Made by a program: the position numbers and the translations under genes
The notes under the pieces: generated by a model
Told to the model about the DNA's origin: nothing
Databases searched by the model: none
Seen by the model: only the letters and a program-made list of their open reading frames with translations
Assembly: GCA_002049455.2 (NCBI GenBank)
Contig: KV918787.1
Location: 124,001 to 188,000, forward strand
DNA: 64,000 bases
Direction of reading: 5' to 3'
From: Porphyra umbilicalis
Lineage: Eukaryota; Rhodophyta; Bangiophyceae; Bangiales; Bangiaceae
Shown here: positions 17,814 to 63,411 of the stretch, piece by piece
Layout: each line of letters starts with the position of its first letter
Position numbering within the stretch: position 1 is the stretch's first letter

Positions 17814-20641
17814 ATGGGTGACGACGTTGGTGGGTACGCGCGTGCACCCGTCCCCGGATCCGACGGTCCGCGCCGCGGCTCGATTGGCGACTGGGGTACC
17901 CGGCCGGCGGCGCGGCCGCGCTCCAGCCCCCCGGCCGGCCGACCAACGGGCGGGGGCAACCGTGACGGCGTCGCCGACGGCGACGACGACGACGACGGGT
18001 TGCCCGGCGCGCCTGGTCGGCGTACGCCGCGCGCCCGCGACGGGCCCGACGCGGGGGCGGCGGCGGCCGGTGGGTTTGGTGGCGCCCCGTGGCCGCCGCG
18101 GTCGGCAGCGGCGGGGGGGACACTGACGGCCGTGCCGATCGAGATGTCAACGTCCATGGACGGTTTCCCATCAAAGGGCGGCGCCCGCCCCGTGCGCGTG
18201 CGGCGGGGCGGGGGAGGGGTGTCGGCCGACGGCAGCGGGGACATTGAAAGTGGCTTTGGCGTGCCGCTTGGGGGGGGAGGCACCGGCGAGAGGGGAAGTG
18301 GCGGCGGTGGGGTTGGCGGGGGGGGGGCGGCGGGGGTGGCGGCGGCGGCGGCGGCGGCAGCGGCGCGGGCGCCCTCGTCGGCCTCTTTGGTGTTGGCGGC
18401 AAGGGCGGCTCTCTGGCCGCCAGCGCTGCCCGCGGGGGCACCCTCTGCGCCCCCGTCGTCGGACCGGACCTGCGCTCCAACCGCACCAAGCGGCTGCTCG
18501 GTATGCTCGTGATCTTTGCGTGTCTGTTTGTGCTCTCGTCGGCGCTCGACGTGCGGCGGGCGACGATGAAGACGCTGCGCAAGCCGATGAAGGTGCAGCT
18601 GAGCATCCCGGCCTTGTCGTCGTCGGATGACGACTCCCCACCGTCAGACGCAGGGGGGAGCGCCGTCAGCGGCGGCGGTGGTGGCAGCAGCACCAGTAGC
18701 GCGGTCACCGCCCCGCCGACCTCGACACGGGACGAGGCGGGTGAGACGACCGCGTCCGCACCCGTGCCCCCGGGGGAGGAGAGCGGCACCGAGTCGATGG
18801 TGACGTTGGTGCCGCTGTCGCCCGGCTCCCCCGACGTCAAGGGTGCCAACGCAACCGGCTCGGCCCCGTACTCGATGCTGCCGGGCGACCATGCGACGGA
18901 CGTTGCCAGCGCTGCCACGGGCCCGACGCCCGCGCCGGAACACCCCGCCGCCGCCGCGGGCGGCTCGGCGACTGTCGGACCCATGCCGCCGTCGCCGTCA
19001 TCGACTGGCACTGCTGCGTCGGCGGCGCCGAGTCAAGGTGCGGGCGCGTCCGACACCAACCTCAGCCCCCAGGAGCTGCGGGACGACGTCGACCAGCTGA
19101 TTGCGCATGTGGACGCGGAGGAGAAGACGACGCTGGCGGTACCCCCGCCGTCGGCTGAGCTGGCCGCCACTGAAGACGGCGGGCCAGGGAGCGATGTGAC
19201 GTTTGGCACGGGCCTGTCGCTGCCGTCGGGCGGCGGCGTCTCGCCGCCCGTCGTCGACTCGACGTCTGGGGTGGCGGTGGCGGACGGGGCAAGCACCGGC
19301 TCGGGGGTAGCGGCCAACACAACGGCCACTGGCGAAGTGCCGCGACTGTCGATTGAGGAGGAGTTTCTCGCCGCCAAGGCGCGCCTCAAGATGAACTCGG
19401 TGTACTTGGGCGCTGGGGAGCTCCTCTACATGGATGCCCTGTCGCTGCAAGCGACCCACGGCGATTGCGAGACCGCATCAGAGGGCGGCAGCCTCTTCAA
19501 AACAGACGCGGAAGTTGCCACCGACGACGTTGAGCGGGGCAGCGCCCAGTGGGGCGCCTGGTGTGTCTTTCGGGGCAAATATAAGAGCGACGCGATGCGG
19601 CAGTTTGCAGCCAAGGAGCGAGTGCTGCAAGACCGCATCGTCGCCTCGTTGATGGTCTCGTCGGCGCCCGCGGGCCCCGCGGATACGGAAGACTTTGGCG
19701 ACGGGGGCGTCGACCACGGCGTTGGGGGGGACTCTGGGGCGGCTGAGCACAACGCGACGACCTCCTTGGTGCCGGGGCCGGTCGCCGAGGCGCCGGTCGC
19801 CGACGGCAAGGACGGCGCCGACGGCGCGAGCGGGGACACGGCGGCGGCCGCGGCTGCCGCCGCCGGCACCACCAGCGGCGGCGTGCCGCCCAAGCCCGCC
19901 TCCACGTCCTTATTTGCGGCCACCGCCACCGCCAACGACACGGTACACCCCATGAGCGCGGAGCTCGGGGCGCCCTTTGCGTCGGCCCTGGAGGTGGCGC
20001 GCACGCTCGTGCCCGACGTGGACGACCACGAGACGCGCTTCGTCTCTGCCCTTGGCCTGCAAGGCCTCCATGGCGACTGCAACGGGGTGGCCGACGGCGG
20101 GGACCGCGCGTCGGGCGGCGGCGCGGGCGGCGGCGTCGTCAGCGTCCTCGGCCCCGGCGGCGTCCTCACCCCGCTCATCGACCCCGTGTTGCAGGCGCGC
20201 GTCGGCCGCGCCGACGCGCTCTGGGGCGCCTGGTGTGTGCTCGGCGGGAAAGCCCGCGACGCGGCCGCGCGGGAGCTGATTGCGCGCGTCGACTTGCTCG
20301 CCGCCCAAAAACGACGGTTGGAGGAGGAGGAGGCTGCCGCCGCGGCGGCGGGCGGGGTGACGGCGGCCACGTCGGGGGGGGCGGCGGCGACGGCCGGTGC
20401 GGGGGAGGGGCTGGACCCGATGAGCCGCCGGGGGCAGCTCGGGGAGGCAGGGCGTGCCGCCCCGGCCAGTGAGGGGGGCGACGGTGGCGGCGGAGCGGCG
20501 GCCGCGCCCGACGGGGCACCTGCGGGGGGAGTGGAGAGAAGAGGAGTGTTGCCGGCGGGGCAGGGGCTGGCGCCCGACGTCAACATGTCGGTTGTGGCCG
20601 CGGCGATCGCGGGGCACATGGCGCGGCATCCCCTCCTTTGA
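17814..20641 (+). CDS. Single-pass membrane protein with two acyl-CoA-binding-protein (ACBP) domains
   Basis: ATG 17814 opens MGDDVGGYARAP, a ~170-residue Gly/Asp/Pro-rich cytosolic-type tail. The frame changes in a poly-G run at about 18.31-18.33 kb and continues as GAGALVGLFGV, NRTKRLLG, then a transmembrane segment (MLVIFACLFVLSSALDV, 18503 on). A long Ser/Pro/Gly/Ala linker follows. ACBP domain 1 is at about 19352-19650: LQATHGDCE, then QWGAWCVFRGKYKSDAM. Domain 2 is at about 19966-20320: LQGLHGDCN, then LWGAWCVLGGKARDAA. Both match the YKQATxGDxN and KWxAWxxLKG signatures. The lysine of YKQAT, which contacts acyl-CoA in known ACBPs, is Leu in domain 1 and not conserved in domain 2, so ligand binding may be altered. 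A predicted coiled segment (RRLEEEEAAA) follows domain 2. Probable role: acyl-CoA binding or trafficking at a membrane. Confidence 0.7.
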
Positions 20642-26456: not shown

Positions 26457-29400
26457 GCGCGGTGCAGGCATGGTCAAAACCTGGATGTGTGTAGCACTTT
26501 CGACAGAAGCCGGGGGGGTTTTCAGCCCGCGCAGGTCGAACACCCAGTCATTTCTGTTGAGCTTCGCCGTGGCGTAACCGTCTTGGTCATTTTTTATGAA
26601 AGGTGGCTGGCGAGACACCCACCGCCAGGCCACGCCCGCCGCGGCGGCACGGCCGCCTTTCCCCCCCCCCCGCCCCCGCCGCTGACGCCGCCCGCCTCCC
26701 CCCCCGCCACCACCGCCGCCGCCGCAAGTCGACGACCTGGCGTCGCGAGCAGCTGCGCCTCCGCCGCCCCCACCCCACGCCGGCGACGGGGCGGCGTCGG
26801 CGTCGCCGCCGACGATGCACGCTCCCCCCCTCCCCCCCTGCGGCTGCAGCGGGCGGTGGCGGTGCGGCTCGCCGCGTCGGCCGCCGGCGGCGGCGGCGGC
26901 TCTGTGGGTCGACGTCGCCGCCGCATCGCGGGCGGCGGCGGCGGCCGCCGCCGCCGTGGCCCGTGTGGTCGTCGTCTGGGATGCGCCGCGCGCAGCGGTG
27001 ATGGGTCCGCCGTCGGCGGGGACGGCGGGGTGACGGTCGGGGGGATGGCCGCCGCGGACGGCGTCGACCACGCGGGCCGGCGTCGGGTGGCACACGAGCC
27101 GGGTGCGGGGCGGGGCGTGGCGGCCGACCACAGCCGCCTCGCGCCGCCGTGTGGTTGCGGCCTACCCGTGCCGCCACACCGCTTGCGGGTGCAGCCACTG
27201 GCGGCCGCCGCGCGCTCGGCACGCACGCGCGCACCACCGCCCGTCGTGGCCGCCGTTGCGACCGCTGCAGGTCGGGGCGGGCGGCGGCGACGCGGCCGCC
27301 GTCGGCCGCACCTGCCGCCGTAACTGGCAGCGGCGACAGACGCGCGACGCTCGGCCGGCGGCGGCGGCGGCGCCGATAATAGGGCGGCTCGCGGTGGCGT
27401 GGCGGGCGGTCACTGGGGGGGAGGGCGGGGGGGTCGGCTGGCACGGGCGTGCGGGCGACGGCGTGGGCGACCGGCCGCCGGGGGCGGGCGCCGACGCCGC
27501 CACGGCCGCCGGTGGGTGGTCACTGGCGGGCGACGGCGCGGCGGAGGGTGCTGCAGCTGACACCGCCGCCGTCGCAGCGCGCAGCGTGTTTCCCCCATGT
27601 GTCGCTGGGCGGCCACGGCCGCACCACGGGGGGGGACGGCGTTGGACACGCGCACCGCGCCTGCGGCAATGTGTGCGGCGGCGGCGCCGCGCGCGTTGTC
27701 TGGTGGCGCAGCGCGCGGCGGCCGCTCGCCATCGGGCGCCGCGTCATCGTCTGTGGCGGCGGTGCCATCCGCACCCCCTACCCGCCTGCCTCTCAATCCC
27801 CCCCCCCCCCCCCCCGCACCGTGAGTGGCGCTGCATCGGCGGCGGTGCCGCCACTGTCGCTGCCGCCGTCACAGCAACAGTGGCGGCCGCCGGCACCGCC
27901 GCACGGCGGCGGCGGCGGCGCTGGGAACGCGGCCAGACGCGTCGGGGCGGCGGGTGGTCGGGCGTCGGCGGTCCCGGCATGTTGGGTGCTTGTCGTTTCT
28001 TTGTGGCACTTGCCGTGGCCCGGCCTTTTAGGGTTGTATGCTCCGAGGCTGTTTGTTGCGCTTCGCGCGTTCTTTAACATGGGTCAATTGACCGATTAAG
28101 CGGGGTGATTAGAGTGGGGCGGCTTCCACTGAGCCCAGCAGTGTAGGTGGCGGGCCAAAACACAGCACGTTGCCGGTCGCCGTTGGCAAGCTTGCCCGGA
28201 CACCCCGCCGCGGGGGCCATTCACGGTTGATACGCGGGCCGCGGTCGGCTGTTTCGGCAGCGGGCCCGATGACGTTGCCCGTCATTGACTGCCGGCCGGC
28301 TCGCTACCAGCGTCCATGCCGCCACGCCTGCCCTGCCGTCTCAGTTATTGTTCGGCCCAGCGGATGCGGACAATGACAAACAACTGGCCGTCCGATCGCC
28401 GAGACGGACCTCTGCCTGCAATGGCATTGCGTTTTTCGGCCACCCAAGCCGATCTCTCGCGAGTGTGTTCGGCGTGGGCGGCCGTCCTCGAGGACAGCAC
28501 TCGAGGACGCGTGACGTGGCTGAAACGACGTCATCGGACGAGGAGGTCATGGCTGTATGCCGCTGTAATGTATTTGAATAAAGTCCACACTGGCCACCCC
28601 CCGTTTGGAGCCCGGCATGACCACAGCGCGTTGATGAAATCTCGTGTCAGGTTCCAAGGTATCTGCAACAAGGCCGAACCGTATTGCTGCTCGACCCCTT
28701 TGCGTTCAGAGAGAGATCGAAAATGAGTACATAACTCCTCTTTGCCCAATCTTTAAGGAGAAGTTCACATCCTTCGAGACATATGTTGCGAGACTCGCCG
28801 CAATGATCCCTCGGAGGTCTCGGGGAAGAAGTGGAGCAAGACCCTGACGGAGGAAAGGATGTGACACCGGCCAGCATTGAGGATACATGCCAAAGATGCA
28901 TTGAAAGACACGGTCGCTTTATTGTTGCTCGGCGCGGGCACGGGTGGCAGAGCAGACACGAAATCGATAAGAAAGCCACGGTGTGCTACAGAGTCACGCA
29001 GACATGTAGCTAACTGCACACAGCCGCAAACTCTGACAGAGCTACAGGCCACCGGACAACAGCAAGCTCACCATGTCAGCGACTCGCGGACACCACGCAT
29101 GCATGTGCGTATGACACAAGTTACTCGACTTCGATGTCAGCAACACCCATTGGTTTGCAAAGAAACAGAAGCCAAGAAAGAGGAAGCCATCGCACATATG
29201 CATGGTAAGGATACATGGGGGATGGGCGAGCGAACACGAAAAAGAAGTACGTGGTCAGTTCATCCAACCCATCCACCACCCACCCACCGCGCGCGTCACA
29301 CTATCCACACTGCGCCAGTGTGGATCCCCACCCAATCGCCACCACCACTAGTCCAGCGACTGCAAACGTCGTCCGGCCCGTCGTAGAGTGACTCCCCCCC

Positions 29401-29475
29401 GCCCCCGTGCGAGCTGGAGAGAATGCGTGGGATGGAGGGGATGCAGATAAGAATACGACAGGAACGAGGGCGGTC

Positions 29476-29605
29476 GGCAGGAGGGTGGGCGGGGCGATCG
29501 AACAGAGGGTGGCCGGGGCTTCCGGCCAGGAGGGTGGGTGGGGCGGTCGACCAGAGGGTGGGCGGGGCGGTCCGCCAGGAGGGTGGGCCGAGCGGTCGGC
29601 CAGGA
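29476..29605. repeat. Tandem repeat, ~26-28 bp unit
   Basis: Four to five imperfect copies of GGAGGGTGGGCGGGGCGGTC followed by a short variable part ending CCA. It has no CRISPR-like spacer structure. Confidence 0.7.
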
Positions 29606-30771
29606 GAGCGAGCGGGGATGTTGGCAGCACTTGTGCACTTGGGCGGCAGCCAGGAGCGGGGCTGGGGGCAGCATGGCAGTCACCTGCACACATGCCGAGG
29701 GCGCGCATTGGCGCCGCCCAGCACTTCGAATTATTATTAATCGCCCCGCTATCCCCAAGCACAAGGCTTGACGTTTTCCAGCCCGCTGGTTGGCTGCCCG
29801 GTTGACCGGGGGCGCATCCTGGGTCCCCATTGGTAGCAGACTATCATGCCAACAGGTACTGAACAAAGTCTGGCTGACACAAGCTACGACGGTGAGGCGT
29901 CCGAGCAGAGGTCTCCATGTGCCCGCAAGAATGCATACTGTGTACGCCAAGTCTGCCTTGAACTGGGTGTGAAGGGTGCCGTTTGATCGCGCAAGGAGGA
30001 CCTGCCCCATGACCCTGCCAGAGCTCTGCACGGCAATGCCAGCAGCCGTCCCACTCTAGCGACACCGTTTGCGCCCCCATCCTCCCCGACCCCCTCGGCA
30101 TGTATGTGCAGCCCCCCTCGCCCCCCCCCCCCCTGCCAGCAGGAGAAAGGAGTGGGAGAGGACAGGAAAGGAGGCAAGCACAAGTGTCCGTGGTTGGGCG
30201 GTGCCCGCAGCTATTGGGAGTAGACGAGTACGCACATGGGTAGGGGTGACCAGGTGGGTGGGGTAAGAAGGTCTCTGGGGGTGTCAGAAAGCCTTCTCAG
30301 ACAGAGCCTTTTAGAGATCGACACAGCGACATTTGCGAGGATGGTGTCACGAGGTTTGCTGCATGGAAAAACATTTCTCTCACGACCTCTCACGGTTCGC
30401 ATATATTTTAAGTTCTCCGTGACCCAATTTGACAACGTGCTGTGACTGTGTCTCGACGGCTGATCGGCAGCCGCGGCAGCGCTGTCAGCTACGCAACAGC
30501 CGCGTACGTAGCTGCGTCAGCGGGGAGCGACCACGGCGTCGTCGTCCTTTGACGTGGCGCCCTGCTCATTGCATGAGCGGGGCACGTCGTCTCGACACCT
30601 ATCCCGTCGACGCGCGCCTCGTGCTCGCGGCGGCTCTTGGTGGCTACTCAGCGCCGGCCGCACCCCCCGCCCCCCTCGCCCCCCCGCCTCCGTGACGCGC
30701 GGCCCATTGCCCGGCAGCCTCTGCGCCCCGCCTCGCCCCCCCCCTCACCCTTTTTCCCCGCCCTCCGCACC

Positions 30772-32176
30772 ATGCTCGCCACCGCCCTCACCGGCCCTGG
30801 CCGCGGCGGTGGCGCCCTCCCCCCCCCAGCGCGCAGCGGCCACCGGTGCCCCCCCCCCCGGCCGCCCCCCCGCGCCGCCGCTCGCGCCCTCCCGGTCGTG
30901 GCGGGGCGGGCGCCCGCAGCGGGCAGTTGTGGCCACCACCGTTGCGCTCGCGGTCGTCGCCCTCGTCGCCGTCCTTGCCGGCTTTGGCCCGTCGCCGGCA
31001 ACGTTTCCCCTCGGCGCCCGCGGCGGCGACGCGACGGCGGCGGCAACGTCGACGGCGGCGGCGGCGCGCGCGGCGGCGGCGGCGGGGGCGCCGCCGACAG
31101 ACGGCACCTACTGCGGGCTGTCGCGCAGGGAGTCGCGCGACTTTTTTTGCGAGCCGCCCCACCTGTGGGCGCGCCGCAAGGCCATTTACGCGGCGCAGGC
31201 GGCCAAGCAGGTGCACCGGCCGAGCGACGCGTCGTCGTCGCTGCAGAGCTTTTGGCAGTACAACTATGTACGTGGGGGGGTCGGGTGCAGGGGGGGGGGG
31301 GGGGGCAGGTCGACGGCGTTCTCGCACGGCCGTGTGCGCGCCGGTGGCGCTGTGTTGGTGGGGTTGGGGGGGGTGGGGGGGTGGCGTCGTGGCCGCACAT
31401 GGGTGTCGTTTGGTTGCTCGCGTGTGCCGGCCCACTGCTGACATCACCGCACCGCCGTCCCGCCGTGCCGTGTCGGTCGCCCCGCTTGCTCCCCCCGGCG
31501 TGTCCATTCTTTTCCTCCCCCCCCCCAGGAGCCAAACTTCAGCTGCGCCTACGAGCAGCGCCTCGGATCGATGGGCGACGGCGGCAAGTGGGTGTACGAC
31601 CCCGCCTCGATTGAGCGCGCCGCCGCCGCCGCCGGCCGCGGCTGCGTCGTCTACTCGGTCGGCTCTGGCGCGCGCTTCTCCTTTGAAGCGGCGGTGCACG
31701 CGGCGCTCCCCGGCTGCGCCATCCACACCTTTGACCACACGATTGGGGATCGGCGGCGCGGCCGCGCCACCGCCCTCCCGCGCTACATCCACTTCCACCC
31801 GTGGGGCCTCGCCGCAGAGGACGTGGGCGGCACGCCGCTGCGGGGCCTCGCGAGCGTGCGGCGGGAGCTCGGGCACGACGCGGCGACGGGCGGGGTCTCC
31901 CTCGAGCTCCTCAAAGTCGACGTGGAGGGGTCGGAATTCGAGTCGCTCCTCCCGTGGCTCCGCACGGGCGCCCTCGACGGCGTGCGGCAGCTGCTGTTGG
32001 AGGTCCACGAGCCGCAGCGGGACGACCACTACGCGACGGCGCGGCGCATTTTTGCAGAGTTGGACGCCGCGGGCTGGGTGATTACGCACAAGGAGCCGAA
32101 TTTGCTCACGGGGGGGAAGCTGGTGGAGTATGCGTTTCTCAAACTCGAGTGGGACGTCAAGGGCGAAACATCCTAA
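30772..32176 (+). CDS. METTL24/FkbM-like methyltransferase, type II membrane protein, two exons
   Basis: Exon 2 encodes the family core: FSCAYEQRLGSMGDGGKWVY, then VVYSVGSGARFSFE (SAM motif I), IHTFDHT, LLKVDVEGSEFESLLPW and QLLLEVHEP. This order is typical of METTL24-like (Methyltransf_22) proteins. Exon 1 provides a transmembrane anchor (VVATTVALAVVALVAVLAG), an Ala-rich stem, CGLSRRESRDFFC and SLQSFWQYNY. The intron (31268-31528, 261 nt) starts GTACGT, ends in poly-C plus CAG, and joins NY to EPNFSC in phase 0, exactly as expected of the family. ATG 30772 is the only good upstream start. It lies in another frame than the anchor, and the change falls in poly-C runs at about 30.82-30.87 kb. 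Likely a Golgi or secretory-pathway methyltransferase; substrate unknown. Confidence 0.75.
31268..31528 (+). other. Intron of the METTL24-like gene (261 nt)
   Basis: GTACGT donor, polypyrimidine (C-rich) tract, CCCAG acceptor, phase 0. It is the clearest intron in the window because both flanks match the protein family. Confidence 0.85.
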
Positions 32177-57888: not shown

Positions 57889-59150
57889 GAGCGACGAAGC
57901 GGGGAGAAGCGAGTGGCCAGACGCCAGTTGCAATGTTGTTCGTGCACATAAACATGAGTAGACGCTCTTGTCCGTATCTTCATTGCTTGGGCACGACGCG
58001 ACGCGGCGCGGCGTGGCGAGGCACGGCTCGGCAAGGCTCGACACGGGATGTCGGTCGACTGTTGATGGGGATGGGGCGGCGGCCAGCGCTTGCGGGAGGG
58101 AAATGAAAAAGCGGGGGTGGCGGCGGAGGCCACACGTTGCGCTCCTGCTTGCAGCGTCGCGAGCAGAGGCACGGCCAACGTCTCGCGGTAGGTCCCGTCG
58201 CGGAACCGGCGCCCCCGACGGCCACGGCCCGCCTGTGGCCACGCCGGTGAGGCCGCCAACCGTCGACCTCCTCCTCCCTGTGAGGGGGTCGTGGGGCACA
58301 CGGTAGCCGCCGCCGTGACGGACCCGTCGACACTGGCAGTCGGCCCGCCGGGCACCGACGACGGCCGTCGCCGCGCGCCCCACCCGCACGCACCGGGACC
58401 GTCGACCCCCGTGCGGACCGCCGGCGGCCGGCGGGCAGCAGCACGGTCGGGGGGCGTCGGCGGCGGCGGCGGCGGTCGTCGACGCCCCCAACCCCCGCCC
58501 GCGCGGCCGCGGCGGTGGCCACGCGCGCACGGGCGCCGGCGCCCGCCTCCCGACCGCCCGCGCGCGGGGCCGACGGCGGTCCGCCGGTGCGCGGCGCGGG
58601 GCCGGTCGGTGGCGAGGCGTCGGCAGCGTCGGCGGGGCGCGCGCCAAACCGCGGTGCCCGCGCCGCCGCGCGGCGGCGGGGGCACTGCGGGTGGGATGGG
58701 GGCCGAGCCGCGGCCGCGGTGGCCGCCCCGCGGACGCGGGGCGGCCACCGCCCCAAGCCTCACGTGCGCCGCGCGCGGCCGCCGCGCCGCGGCCGTCGCG
58801 GCGACGCGCGCTTCAGCGACCTGTGCCCGTGCGGGCGCCGGCCGCCCTCGGCCCGCGAGGCTGTGTTTATGGGCGCGGCCCGTGGGCACGGGTCGGCGTA
58901 CAAGCACGGCCCAGTGGCAGCGCGCAGGCCGCGAAAGAGTTTCAGTTTGAGCCATGAGTGGATGTTTGGTGCATTGTGAGACACCGAGAGTTTTCTGACA
59001 ATAAAGTGTTTGCCAATGACTACAGCCCGAGTTCCTCGGCTGGATTTCCACAAGTGTAAACTTTGGCTTTCCAGAACTCCCGAGAATTAGATTACTTGAG
59101 TTCTACTGAATCTACGATTGTGGTCCTCCGGACTTGAGACAAAACTCTGT
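57889..59150. other. GC-rich spacer left of the inverted duplication
   Basis: 58.2-58.95 kb is extremely GC-rich. An AATAAA (about 59.00 kb) and AT-richer DNA follow. No gene is supported. Confidence 0.4.
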
Positions 59151-59399
59151 CGTGGCAACACGTGAACGCAACACGAGGGCAAAGGCTGTGCGACAGGGAA
59201 CAAGACGCGCTGCCAGAAAGACGCTGTGTTTACTCTCCCCCTGTCCCTCTCATCACGCCAATCGAACCACACTCGCACTCGACAAGACAAAATATACACC
59301 ATCAGCCCAAAGTCGGATGGGAGTCAATGCCCGGCCGCGCCGGGCGAGTCAAACCATTGTGTCGGTGAGGCGCCCCGCCGACGCAGCGCCGCCGCGCGC

Positions 59400-59619
59400 C
59401 TACTTGCGGCCGCCAATCACCACGCTCTGCTGGTTCTGGTTGTTGTTGTTGTTGTCGTTGTTGTCGTTGTTGTTGTTGTTGTTGTCGTCCCCAGACCCAT
59501 AGCCCCGCCCCGACCGCTCCACCCAGTGCACCGGGTAGTGGCAGTAGCCCGGCCGGCCGTCGCCCGCCTTGGCCGCCGCGCGCGACGTGCGGCCAATCAC
59601 CACGCTCTGCTGGTTTTGG

Positions 59620-59659
<40 letters not shown>

Positions 59660-59981
59660 CATTGTCGTAGCCAAAGGCGTAACCCGCCGCGTAGCCGTCG
59701 CCAAACGGCGCGCCGCCGCCCGACGCCGCCTGCCGCCCGCGGCCGCCAATGGCCACGGTCTGCTGGTTGTCGTTGTTGTTGTTGTTGGCGTTGTTGTTGT
59801 TGTTGTTGTTGTCGTTGTAGTCGTAAAAGCCGTATGCGTAGCCCTCCTTGTAGCCATAGTGGCACGGCACATACTTGGCGTCCCGCTTGACGGCGGCGCG
59901 CACCGACGTCGGCACGGCGGCCGCGGACGCGACGAGGGCGGCGGCGACGACGGCAGCGGCGGTGGTCTTGAAGGCACCCAT
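59400..59981 (-). CDS. Secreted Asn-rich repeat protein, copy 1 (193 residues)
   Basis: ATG 59981 (context CGCCATGG) starts MGAFKTTAAAVVAAALVASA, a signal peptide. The frame runs upstream into the 5' UTR without a better start. The mature protein has three modules. Each is a Tyr/Gly-rich spacer (HYGYKEGYAYGFYDY; GDGYAAGYAFGY; GRGYGSG), an Asn/Asp homopolymer tract encoded by AAC/GAC triplets, and a closing NQQTVAIGGR / QNQQSVVIGR / QNQQSVVIGGR. Two cysteines, in CHYGYKEG and CHYPVHW, share a CHY context. No family recognised. Composition suggests an extracellular, possibly self-assembling protein. It differs from copy 2 by one visible residue in the last Asn/Asp tract (Asn for Asp). Confidence 0.8.
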
Positions 59982-60197
59982 GGCGGGGAGCGGAAGAGGG
60001 CGGCGGGGAAGGCAGGGGTGTGGCGGTGAAAGGATGGCGGGGCGGAGGGAGGGCACCGAAGCGCGGGAAGGGTAGAGCAGGAGAGTGGGTGAGGCGGAGG
60101 GGATGAAAAGGGCGAGTAAGGGCCGGTCGCTAGATGTGGGGTCGCTGATGTGAGTGTGAGGAGAGGAAGGTGAGGACGGAAGGTCCACGTGAGGTCG

Positions 60198-60205
60198 CCT
60201 TTATA
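60198..60205 (-). promoter_or_regulatory. TATA box of Asn-rich gene copy 1
   Basis: TATAAAGG on the minus strand, 217 bp upstream of the ATG and mirrored exactly by the box in the other arm. Confidence 0.6.
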
Positions 60206-60332
60206 GGGCGTTGAGAGGGAGGAGGGCCGGTGGGTTGGGGTCACGCCTGGCCAACATGACCGCTGCCGTGACGACTGGGCGCCCCAACCCGCCCGCCACG
60301 CGCGAGCTCGGCCGCGCTGAGCCCCGCGGACG

Positions 60333-61693
60333 ACGGGCGCAGCGCTCCATAGGCCACTGTCATCCCTACCCCAGATTCTCTCTCGCGCCGGACAGGTCAT
60401 TGTCCCGCCAAGGGTGCCACGGCAAGCCGAGCAGCGCAGCCATGCACAACCGCGACTCGCGATGCCCGGTCGCCGGCCACTGCAAGTACCGACGGCGCGA
60501 GGACCGAGAGCCGAGGTACCATGCATTGGCACGCGTGCCAAGCAGAGAGCTTCAGGCGCTGACGCGCGCCCTGCATCAGATCCAGCCGCGGCCTGTCCGT
60601 GAGGGGCATATACGACGCGGTGTCCCAGTCAGCGGATGCCAGCTCACGCAGCTGAGCATGTCAGACGAGGAGGATTAACGGGTTATGGACCTGTCACACA
60701 GATGTCATTGGCATGGCGGTAGTGCTGGAGGTCCTATTACCGAGGTGCACAACGCACGGCGCGCTGTCGTTTGATGTTTAGACGCCTGCCAAGTCACGCG
60801 ATAGGCCGATTTAGGCGGTTTAGCCAGTCTCTTTAGACGCTACGAGCTTGCGAGATCCACGCCGACAGCTCAGCGCCCCACGCGGCCGCCCGGTCGGCCT
60901 GGCGATACAGCAGGGTGCCGCCACAAGGAGGCAGGATGGGCATCAGCACTGCTGATTCCGCTGACAAGGCTTGTCTCGGATCGGGACGCGCCAGCGCACA
61001 GCGAAGCAGATTAGACGCCTGACCGGCTGGCGCGCGCCCTGTTCGCTGTTTTTCCGCCGCGCAAGGCAACAGAAGGAGAATCAGGCCGGCCTGACGGTTG
61101 CCCATTGGTCCATTGTCTATGACTCATCATGTCGCGATTTTTGTGGGCCATTAAAATTGCGACGTTTGCCATAACTCAGAATGGGCCAGTAACAGCTGCA
61201 CTGCCGTTTCGTTCCGGGATGGAGCTTTCAAGAAGACCGGCCTTGGGCTGATAGAGCGGCCTGCCACCTCGTTTAACAATATTGACACCGATTCGAGCTA
61301 ATCTCGTGGCTGCCGGGGCGGCTTCCACCGGCTCGCCTGGGATGCGTCTTGGGCCAGATTGCCCGCTCTCAGCCGATACTCAATCTTGGATGGAAGGAGT
61401 AAAAAGAGGGATCCTGACAAGCACCGCTGTGTGTGCTTGCATCGGTGGACGGGAGGACCACTGCCAGGCACGTGGAATCTTGCGTCGCGGTGATCTGTCG
61501 TGTCCCGACATGCGTTTGCATGCCTGGATCGCCCCAGGTGTCATGGTGTCATGGGAGCCGACACACTGCTACGATGAAGTGGCTCCCCGCCTTTACGAGC
61601 GGCGGCACGAGAGACCGCGCTATGACCTGTCCGTGACTCCGCGAATCCGTGAAGAGGAATAGACCATCCGCAGCGCCTCTGCCATGCGGCCCC
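60333..61693. other. Unique spacer between the two arms (shared upstream region)
   Basis: 1,361 bp between divergent promoters. Short frames on both strands, the best being 60441-60678 plus (MHNRDSRCPVAGHCKYRR ending MSDEED), have no recognised family. It may act as a shared regulatory region. Confidence 0.45.
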
Positions 61694-61820
61694 CGTCCGC
61701 GGGGCTCAGCGCGGCCGAGCTCGCGCGTGGCGGGCGGGTTGGGGCGCCCAGTCGTCACGGCAGCGGTCATGTTGGCCAGGCGTGACCCCAACCCACCGGC
61801 CCTCCTCCCTCTCAACGCCC

Positions 61821-61828
61821 TATAAAGG
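61821..61828 (+). promoter_or_regulatory. TATA box of Asn-rich gene copy 2
   Basis: TATAAAGG, 217 bp before the ATG, in the context CGCCCTATAAAGGCGACC. Confidence 0.65.
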
Positions 61829-62044
61829 CGACCTCACGTGGACCTTCCGTCCTCACCCCCCTCTCCTCACACTCACATCAGCGCCCCCACAGCTAGCGAC
61901 CGGCCCTTACTCGCCCTTTTCATCCCCTCCGCCTCACCCACTCTCCTGCTCTACCCTTCCCGCGCTTCGGTGCCCTCCCTCCGCCCCGCCATCCTTTCAC
62001 CGCCACACCCCTGCCTTCCCCGCCGCCCTCTTCCGCTCCCCGCC

Positions 62045-62366
62045 ATGGGTGCCTTCAAGACCACCGCCGCTGCCGTCGTCGCCGCCGCCCTCGTCGCGTC
62101 CGCGGCCGCCGTGCCGACGTCGGTGCGCGCCGCCGTCAAGCGGGACGCCAAGTATGTGCCGTGCCACTATGGCTACAAGGAGGGCTACGCATACGGCTTT
62201 TACGACTACAACGACAACAACAACAACAACAACAACGCCAACAACAACAACAACGACAACCAGCAGACCGTGGCCATTGGCGGCCGCGGGCGGCAGGCGG
62301 CGTCGGGCGGCGGCGCGCCGTTTGGCGACGGCTACGCGGCGGGTTACGCCTTTGGCTACGACAATG

Positions 62367-62406
<40 letters not shown>

Positions 62407-62626
62407 CCAAAACCAGCAGAGCGTGGTGATTGGCCGCACGTCGCGCGCGGCGGCCAAGGCGGGCGACGGCCGGCCGGGCTACTGCCACTACCCGGTGCAC
62501 TGGGTGGAGCGGTCGGGGCGGGGCTATGGGTCTGGGGACGACAACGACAACAACAACAACGACAACAACGACAACAACAACAACAACCAGAACCAGCAGA
62601 GCGTGGTGATTGGCGGCCGCAAGTAG
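62045..62626 (+). CDS. Secreted Asn-rich repeat protein, copy 2 (193 residues)
   Basis: Same design as copy 1: signal peptide MGAFKTTAAAVVAAALVASA, three Tyr/Gly-rich spacers, three Asn/Asp tracts, and three QQ(T/S)V(A/V)IG motifs, ending GGRK. Transcribed away from copy 1, with its promoter inside the duplicated arm. The AAC-repeat tracts normally drift fast in length, yet the two copies have equal lengths. That implies very recent duplication, ongoing gene conversion, or an assembly artefact. Confidence 0.8.
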
Positions 62627-62875
62627 GCGCGCGGCGGCGCTGCGTCGGCGGGGCGCCTCACCGACACAATGGTTTGACTCGCCCGGCGCGGCCGGGCATT
62701 GACTCCCATCCGACTTTGGGCTGATGGTGTATATTTTGTCTTGTCGAGTGCGAGTGTGGTTCGATTGGCGTGATGAGAGGGACAGGGGGAGAGTAAACAC
62801 AGCGTCTTTCTGACAGCGCGTCTTGTTCCCTGTCGCACAGCCTTTGCCCTCGTGTTGCGTTCACGTGTTGCCACG

Positions 62876-63411
62876 TCAGTGTTTTGGCGCGAGTCTAGGC
62901 GACGACCACCGTAGATACAGGGCATGACGTTCGAGGTATGACGTCCGAGGTACTTCTTGGCTTGCTGAGTTTTCCTGGAAATCTTCGTCCATCCGCTTGA
63001 AAGGATGAAATGACACGCACAGATGTGGCACACATAGATTATTTTGGCCCATAGGAGAACACGTTTTGAAAGTACAGGCTCACTATTTTCAAGTTGAAAA
63101 GGTTGCTGGTGCAGGTACGGCTTGCCGACAGGGGTACAGTACCCCTGGCGAACCCGGGTTTGCCTTGTCCACCGCACGGTAATCCCAGGCCCGCAGCCTG
63201 CACCAAGTCTTCGCGGCGAGCGACCTCAGCGTCTGCCCGTGCCCGCCCCACTGGGCTTGTCACGAACTGCTACTGCTTGGCTGTGCATTCAGTGTGCCGT
63301 TGGTTGGGATGCTGGTGCTGGCGCCGACCAAGGCCTGCTGACCGTCAGCTCGTTGGTGTCCACTGTGGCTGCCGCCGTCAGCTGCGCGAGGGTGGCTCTG
63401 GTCGGTGCACG
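62876..63411. other. Spacer with dispersed repeat
   Basis: Contains the inverted copy of the VCHICAC repeat (62964-63037) and moderate-GC DNA that probably includes the 5' region of the right-edge gene. Confidence 0.4.
62964..63037 (-). repeat. Dispersed repeat, copy B (VCHICAC repeat)
   Basis: Reverse complement of the stretch at 22789-22860, sharing TGTGCCACATCTGTGCGTGT and the following TTCATCCTTT..AAG.GGATGGAC. Confidence 0.6.

Follow-up and report, generated by a model that had tools for sequence, protein, structure and literature searches.

A prion-like domain is usually recognised by at least 30 glutamine or asparagine (Q/N) residues in 80, and Q/N-rich domains of this kind include those of the yeast type and the tracts of Dictyostelium and Plasmodium. 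Among extracellular proteins, the repeats of curlin (CsgA) follow the pattern Q-x-G-x-G-N, the matrix proteins of mussel byssal threads are rich in Gly, Tyr and Asn, and the glycine-rich wall proteins of plants are secreted and carry Gly/Tyr-rich stretches open to oxidative cross-linking. Rodlins and chaplins are described as secreted paralogue sets that coat the cell surface (PMC5314377). The proteomes of Plasmodium and Dictyostelium are reported to be N-rich throughout (PMC11132505).

In the current analysis we have identified a family of Asn-rich proteins in the genome of the red alga Porphyra umbilicalis, two members of which are encoded in the 64,000-nucleotide stretch of DNA that was analysed (the window). 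The family resembles Q/N-rich prion-like domains in its Asn/Gln density, which is above the usual cut, and in its long Asn runs, and differs from them in its signal-like start, its tracts of nearly fixed length and the conserved hydrophobic motif attached to them. In contrast to Plasmodium and Dictyostelium, AAC-coded runs are rare in the P. umbilicalis genome. With chaplins, rodlins and curlin the family shares the organisation as a set of putatively secreted paralogues, but it lacks the Q-x-G-x-G-N pattern of curlin and its host is eukaryotic. The Gly, Tyr and Asn composition is like that of the byssal thread matrix proteins, from which the family departs in its block design, its nearly fixed tracts and the absence of Asn-Gly pairs (none in nine full-length proteins). 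Gly/Tyr-rich stretches are also shared with the plant glycine-rich wall proteins, in which no counterpart to the Asn cassettes and the VVIG motif is known. The reading that we prefer, with somewhat better than even confidence, is that the family comprises secreted proteins of the extracellular matrix (cell wall or cuticle) that would assemble through stickers and spacers.

The region between 59400 and 62626 of the window contains two near-identical head-to-head copies of one ORF of 193 residues, one on each strand. The plus-strand CDS (L001, 62045..62626, 193 residues and a stop, of subfamily A as defined below) and the minus-strand CDS (L002, 59400..59981), which differ by one residue in translation, each encode a signal-like N terminus followed by three successive units of spacer, Asn/Asp tract and QQ(S/T)V(V/A)IG motif. 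In L001 the signal-peptide-like region, with an AxA-type site, covers residues 1-23 (62045..62113, plus strand). The tracts, each counted as 17 residues, cover residues 56-72 (62210..62260), 107-123 (62363..62413) and 167-183 (62543..62593) on the same strand. The motifs, assigned by pattern and alignment, are QQTVAIG at residues 73-79 (62261..62281) and QQSVVIG at residues 124-130 (62414..62434) and 184-190 (62594..62614), all on the plus strand, the third being followed by GRK and the stop. The initial annotation had described these three modules; they are real, and occur in all nine full-length copies of the genome, the two ORFs of the window among them. Its description of one design repeated three times is exact for tract and motif and loose for the spacers, since the third spacer (CHY...W) is only partly like spacers 1 and 2.

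Both ORFs lie within an inverted duplication whose arms, as aligned, extend over 61685..62920 (plus strand) and 59106..60341 (minus strand). The right arm includes promoter, CDS and 3' flank. The arms are 1,236 nt each, share 98% identity and are separated by 1,343 nt; only one of their 22 mismatches in 1236 positions falls inside the 582-nt CDS. A TATA box, CCTATAAAGG, lies at 61821..61826 on the plus strand, 224 nt before the ATG, and that of the minus-strand copy at 60200..60205. TATA-like boxes precede the ATG by 151-224 nt in all ten family members, eight with CCTATAAAGG and two with CCATAAAGG. The GC content of the window ranges from 0.57 to 0.81 per 2 kb.

A protein search of the 83.8-Mb assembly (665 contigs) gave 12 matches, of which ten, including the two in the window, are family members. 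Nine are full-length copies of 171-202 residues that keep all three modules. The tenth (L010) is an in-frame ORF of 76 residues with one cassette, and apparently arose when the part between tracts 1 and 3 was lost in frame; its description as a broken gene on account of one TAG was rejected, as the one-cassette ORF ends at that TAG. The two remaining matches, L011 (E 0.03) and L012 (E 2.2), have no Asn-tract ORF and were left outside the family. Three subfamilies are recognised: A, with the pair on contig C27 and L003 and L010 on C43; B, with a head-to-head pair on C514 (L004 and L005); and C, with three copies on C220 and one on C524. Between subfamilies, pS outside the tracts is 0.27-0.42 and the upstream flanks are 48-55% identical. 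The C514 pair (27432-30778; 93.9% identity over 1,611 columns) resembles the pair in the window. The resemblance could go back to an ancestral pairing accompanied by gene conversion, or else inverted duplication may have taken place repeatedly.

The DNA pattern of the motif, CARCARDSNGTNGYNATHGG, which misses QQQVAIG, as found in six of the first cassettes, and variants elsewhere, has 22 exact matches in the 83.8 Mb, all 22 of them inside the family, and the reversed control has none. Outside this genome, matches of the two window proteins to Pfam are all below cut-off and unrelated; no known matrix domain exceeds the cut-off, and neither curlin nor any other amyloid family is matched. NCBIfam gave no match at E 1 and the plasmids no relative at E 0.01, and none of the 273 pattern matches in GTDB genomes or of the 72 fitting stretches in viral contigs was confirmed. 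A relative of solved structure was considered and rejected, the only PDB match (E 6.1) being to poly-Asn within a fusion construct, and an origin from viruses, bacteria or plasmids was rejected for want of a relative in the viral contigs, GTDB genomes and plasmids. The earlier statement that no described family has this architecture thus holds for all these libraries; as none of them is a red algal genome collection, the absence of relatives does not imply restriction to this lineage. The literature matches listed include no report on Asn-rich Porphyra proteins and no protein of such kind.

The N terminus is Ala/Val-rich and signal-like in all ten copies as judged by eye, and the proteins are probably secreted. 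A plastid-targeted or other intracellular protein, with the N terminus serving as a red algal transit peptide, is improbable in our estimate. A Phe near the start is a feature of some red algal transit peptides, and the family begins with MGAF, with Phe at position 4, in an Ala/Thr/Ser-rich region that in subfamily A contains no acidic residue before D34. The hydrophobic core of Ala, Val and Leu with an AAA-VP or AAA-AP site reads instead as a signal peptide, L010 carries Leu in place of the Phe, and the four ORFs outside the family that carry (AAC)8 repeats likewise have starts that look signal-like by eye.

A basic residue lies shortly behind every motif, in the sequences GGRGR, GRTSR and GGRK, and subfamily A has KR before module 1. 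Such residues would be expected in a precursor of short secreted peptides, cleaved behind the motifs to free Asn-rich VVIG peptides. We consider this highly improbable, as the KR of subfamily A is replaced by KT in B and by KE in C, and no dibasic site recurs in every module.

The family is under purifying selection and evolves as protein, as its substitution pattern shows. For the whole CDS, the 36 pairwise comparisons among the nine full-length genes give a pooled pN/pS of 0.36, a ratio of uncorrected proportions from pairs that are not independent. By region, pooled over the same pairs, the ratio is lowest in the motifs (0.17), followed by the tracts (0.30), the signal region (0.35) and the spacers (0.44). 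The tract, counted from the first Asn to QQ, is 17 residues long in 26 of the 27 cassettes that the nine full-length proteins contain, and the spacing from tract to motif is kept across paralogues in the same proportion. The departures are the third tract of L009 and the sole tract of L010, both of 11 residues. In all nine full-length proteins tract 1 is preceded by 55 residues, counted with the signal; spacer 2 measures 27, 30 and 24 residues and spacer 3 measures 36, 42 and 22 residues in subfamilies A, B and C respectively. This constancy of the 17-residue tract is a new feature, absent from the initial annotation.

The contents of the tracts vary by subfamily, with Asp, His, Ala, Gln and Ser at differing sites, so that the constant length is not merely the result of recent copying. 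Gene conversion within subfamilies can mimic such constancy and may contribute to it. A control from the same genome, an Asn-rich paralogue pair on contig C172 (pS 0.15), has tracts of 14 and 9 residues and also differs in a Pro-rich stretch. With this one pair as control, selection on tract length is suggested at most.

These observations bear on a secreted structural protein that does not assemble, in which the Asn tracts would be hydrated flexible linkers and QQxVxIG would bind wall polysaccharide or another protein. Conservation of a short motif carried by long hydrophilic linkers, variable spacers and the basic residue behind every motif are all in keeping with it. A plain linker should tolerate change of length, yet the tracts are nearly all of one length, and no carbohydrate-binding family was matched in Pfam or NCBIfam; we regard this alternative as possible but rather unlikely.

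Asn in L001 is encoded by AAC in 41 of 42 codons, and this near-uniform coding is what a by-product of microsatellite expansion inside an otherwise unimportant ORF would show. Genome-wide, (AAC)8 has 108 overlapping matches, 71 forward and 37 reverse. Nine family members account for 93 of these and four further loci for the remaining 15; the count covers exact AAC runs, with tracts that mix AAT codons falling outside it. The reversed pattern (68 and 36) is not an independent control, as it matches the same repeats, only shifted in phase. All 13 loci are in ORFs with signal-like starts, and the four outside the family (two on C172, one at C220:2959 and one on C462) also read the repeat as Asn. 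The nearly fixed tract length, the motif pattern matched only in the family and the confinement of (AAC)8 to few ORFs make microsatellite noise unlikely, and with the purifying selection described above we give this explanation hardly any weight. As far as the exact (AAC)8 search extends, long AAC-coded poly-Asn is confined to predicted exported proteins. This restriction to ORFs with signal-like starts and the 17-residue tract are the new testable features of the current analysis.

The four loci outside the family are of three kinds. L053 (C172:62042) and L059 (C172:67903) are paralogous ORFs that both begin with a signal-like segment. Two Cys-rich parts enclose, in this order, a long Pro-rich stretch and GNNNNGG/poly-Asn, and the composition is extensin-like; L053, the member of the pair that was scanned, has no match in Pfam. 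The ORF near C220:2959 (L060/L070) has a signal-like start, is rich in Tyr, Gly, His and Asn and is continued by many Cys-rich repeats, for which Pfam gives DUF7107 over the cut-off and EB below it; it shares its contig with three family members. L068 (C462:43723) has a signal-like start, a block of Asp/Ser-Asn(18)-Asp/Ser and a Cys-containing part, with no Pfam family over the cut-off.

The composition of the mature proteins is prion-like, as had been claimed: the nine full-length members have 35-39 Q/N per 80 residues, above the usual cut, and the short L010 counts 12 among its 53 mature residues. On an aggregation scale L001 has a local peak at each motif (0.54, 0.84 and 0.84), and the description of the motif as short and β-prone is supported. 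Peaks also occur in the Tyr spacers (0.70 and 0.70), in the CHY contexts (0.42 and 0.57) and at the N terminus, and stickiness on this scale is therefore not peculiar to the motif. The initial interpretation is partly supported, and amyloid formation is a putative property. Single-sequence AlphaFold prediction gave a mean pLDDT of 36.2 and no usable structure, a value usual for low-complexity sequence which speaks neither for nor against the matrix reading.

An association with minerals had also been proposed, and a carbonate-associated protein of the shell-boring phase would agree with an Asn/Asp composition reminiscent of mollusc nacre proteins. In mature form the nine full-length proteins carry a net charge (K+R-D-E) of -6 to +2 and so are not strongly acidic, and Asp accounts for 44 of 482 tract residues against 410 for Asn. 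The proposal is weakened by these counts and now appears barely credible. N-glycosylation sequons are absent from all nine full-length proteins, and L010 has one. In shuffles of three of the nine the probability of no sequon is 0.0755, 0.0235 and 0.0070, figures that are not strong evidence because the clustering of Asn makes the shuffle unfair.

The matrix reading therefore remains the one that we prefer among those considered, and we infer secretion, assembly, cross-linking, location and expression from the protein sequences. The N terminus would direct secretion, and the QQ(S/T)VVIG segments would pair as intermolecular β strands and so act as stickers. The tracts, amide-rich and equal in length, would stack in register or set the distance between stickers. 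Tyr and Cys would cross-link the network; C40 and C147 occur in each of the nine full-length proteins of the alignment. The equal tract length across paralogues would permit in-register co-assembly of different members. A more specific form of the scheme is a eukaryotic extracellular amyloid-like scaffold of the wall or cuticle, in which a 17-residue poly-Asn ruler and a VVIG strand form a 24-residue cassette, the length is selected for in-register co-assembly of paralogues and AAC-coded poly-Asn is kept for exported proteins; this we put forward only tentatively, as a rather doubtful possibility.

Repeats normally drift in length, and poly-Asn tracts of one length across diverged paralogues would therefore be unusual. 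Tract and motif, if the scheme is true, would also provide materials work with a ruler-plus-sticker design taken from nature. The protein components of the red algal wall and cuticle seem little described, and the family may well represent an uncharacterised matrix protein of red algae; with a compact and constrained family the question of such proteins becomes testable. The cuticle of P. umbilicalis is reported to bear mannan (PMC6419167). A text search of a review of the macroalgal matrix (PMC8307928) for cuticle, cell wall proteins and ECM proteins returned 0 matches in the text covered.

Other genes were noted in the course of the analysis. Phycobilisome-linker matches number 12, four on contig C665 and eight across seven other contigs, and phycobiliprotein matches number 11, ten on C665 and a weaker one on C128; these matches mark the host as a red alga, and C665 is read as plastid. 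The window also encodes, on the plus strand, an ORF with an acyl-CoA-binding domain (PF00887) at 18248-20638 and an ORF matching Methyltransf_22 (PF13383, E 1.7e-33) at 31442-32173.
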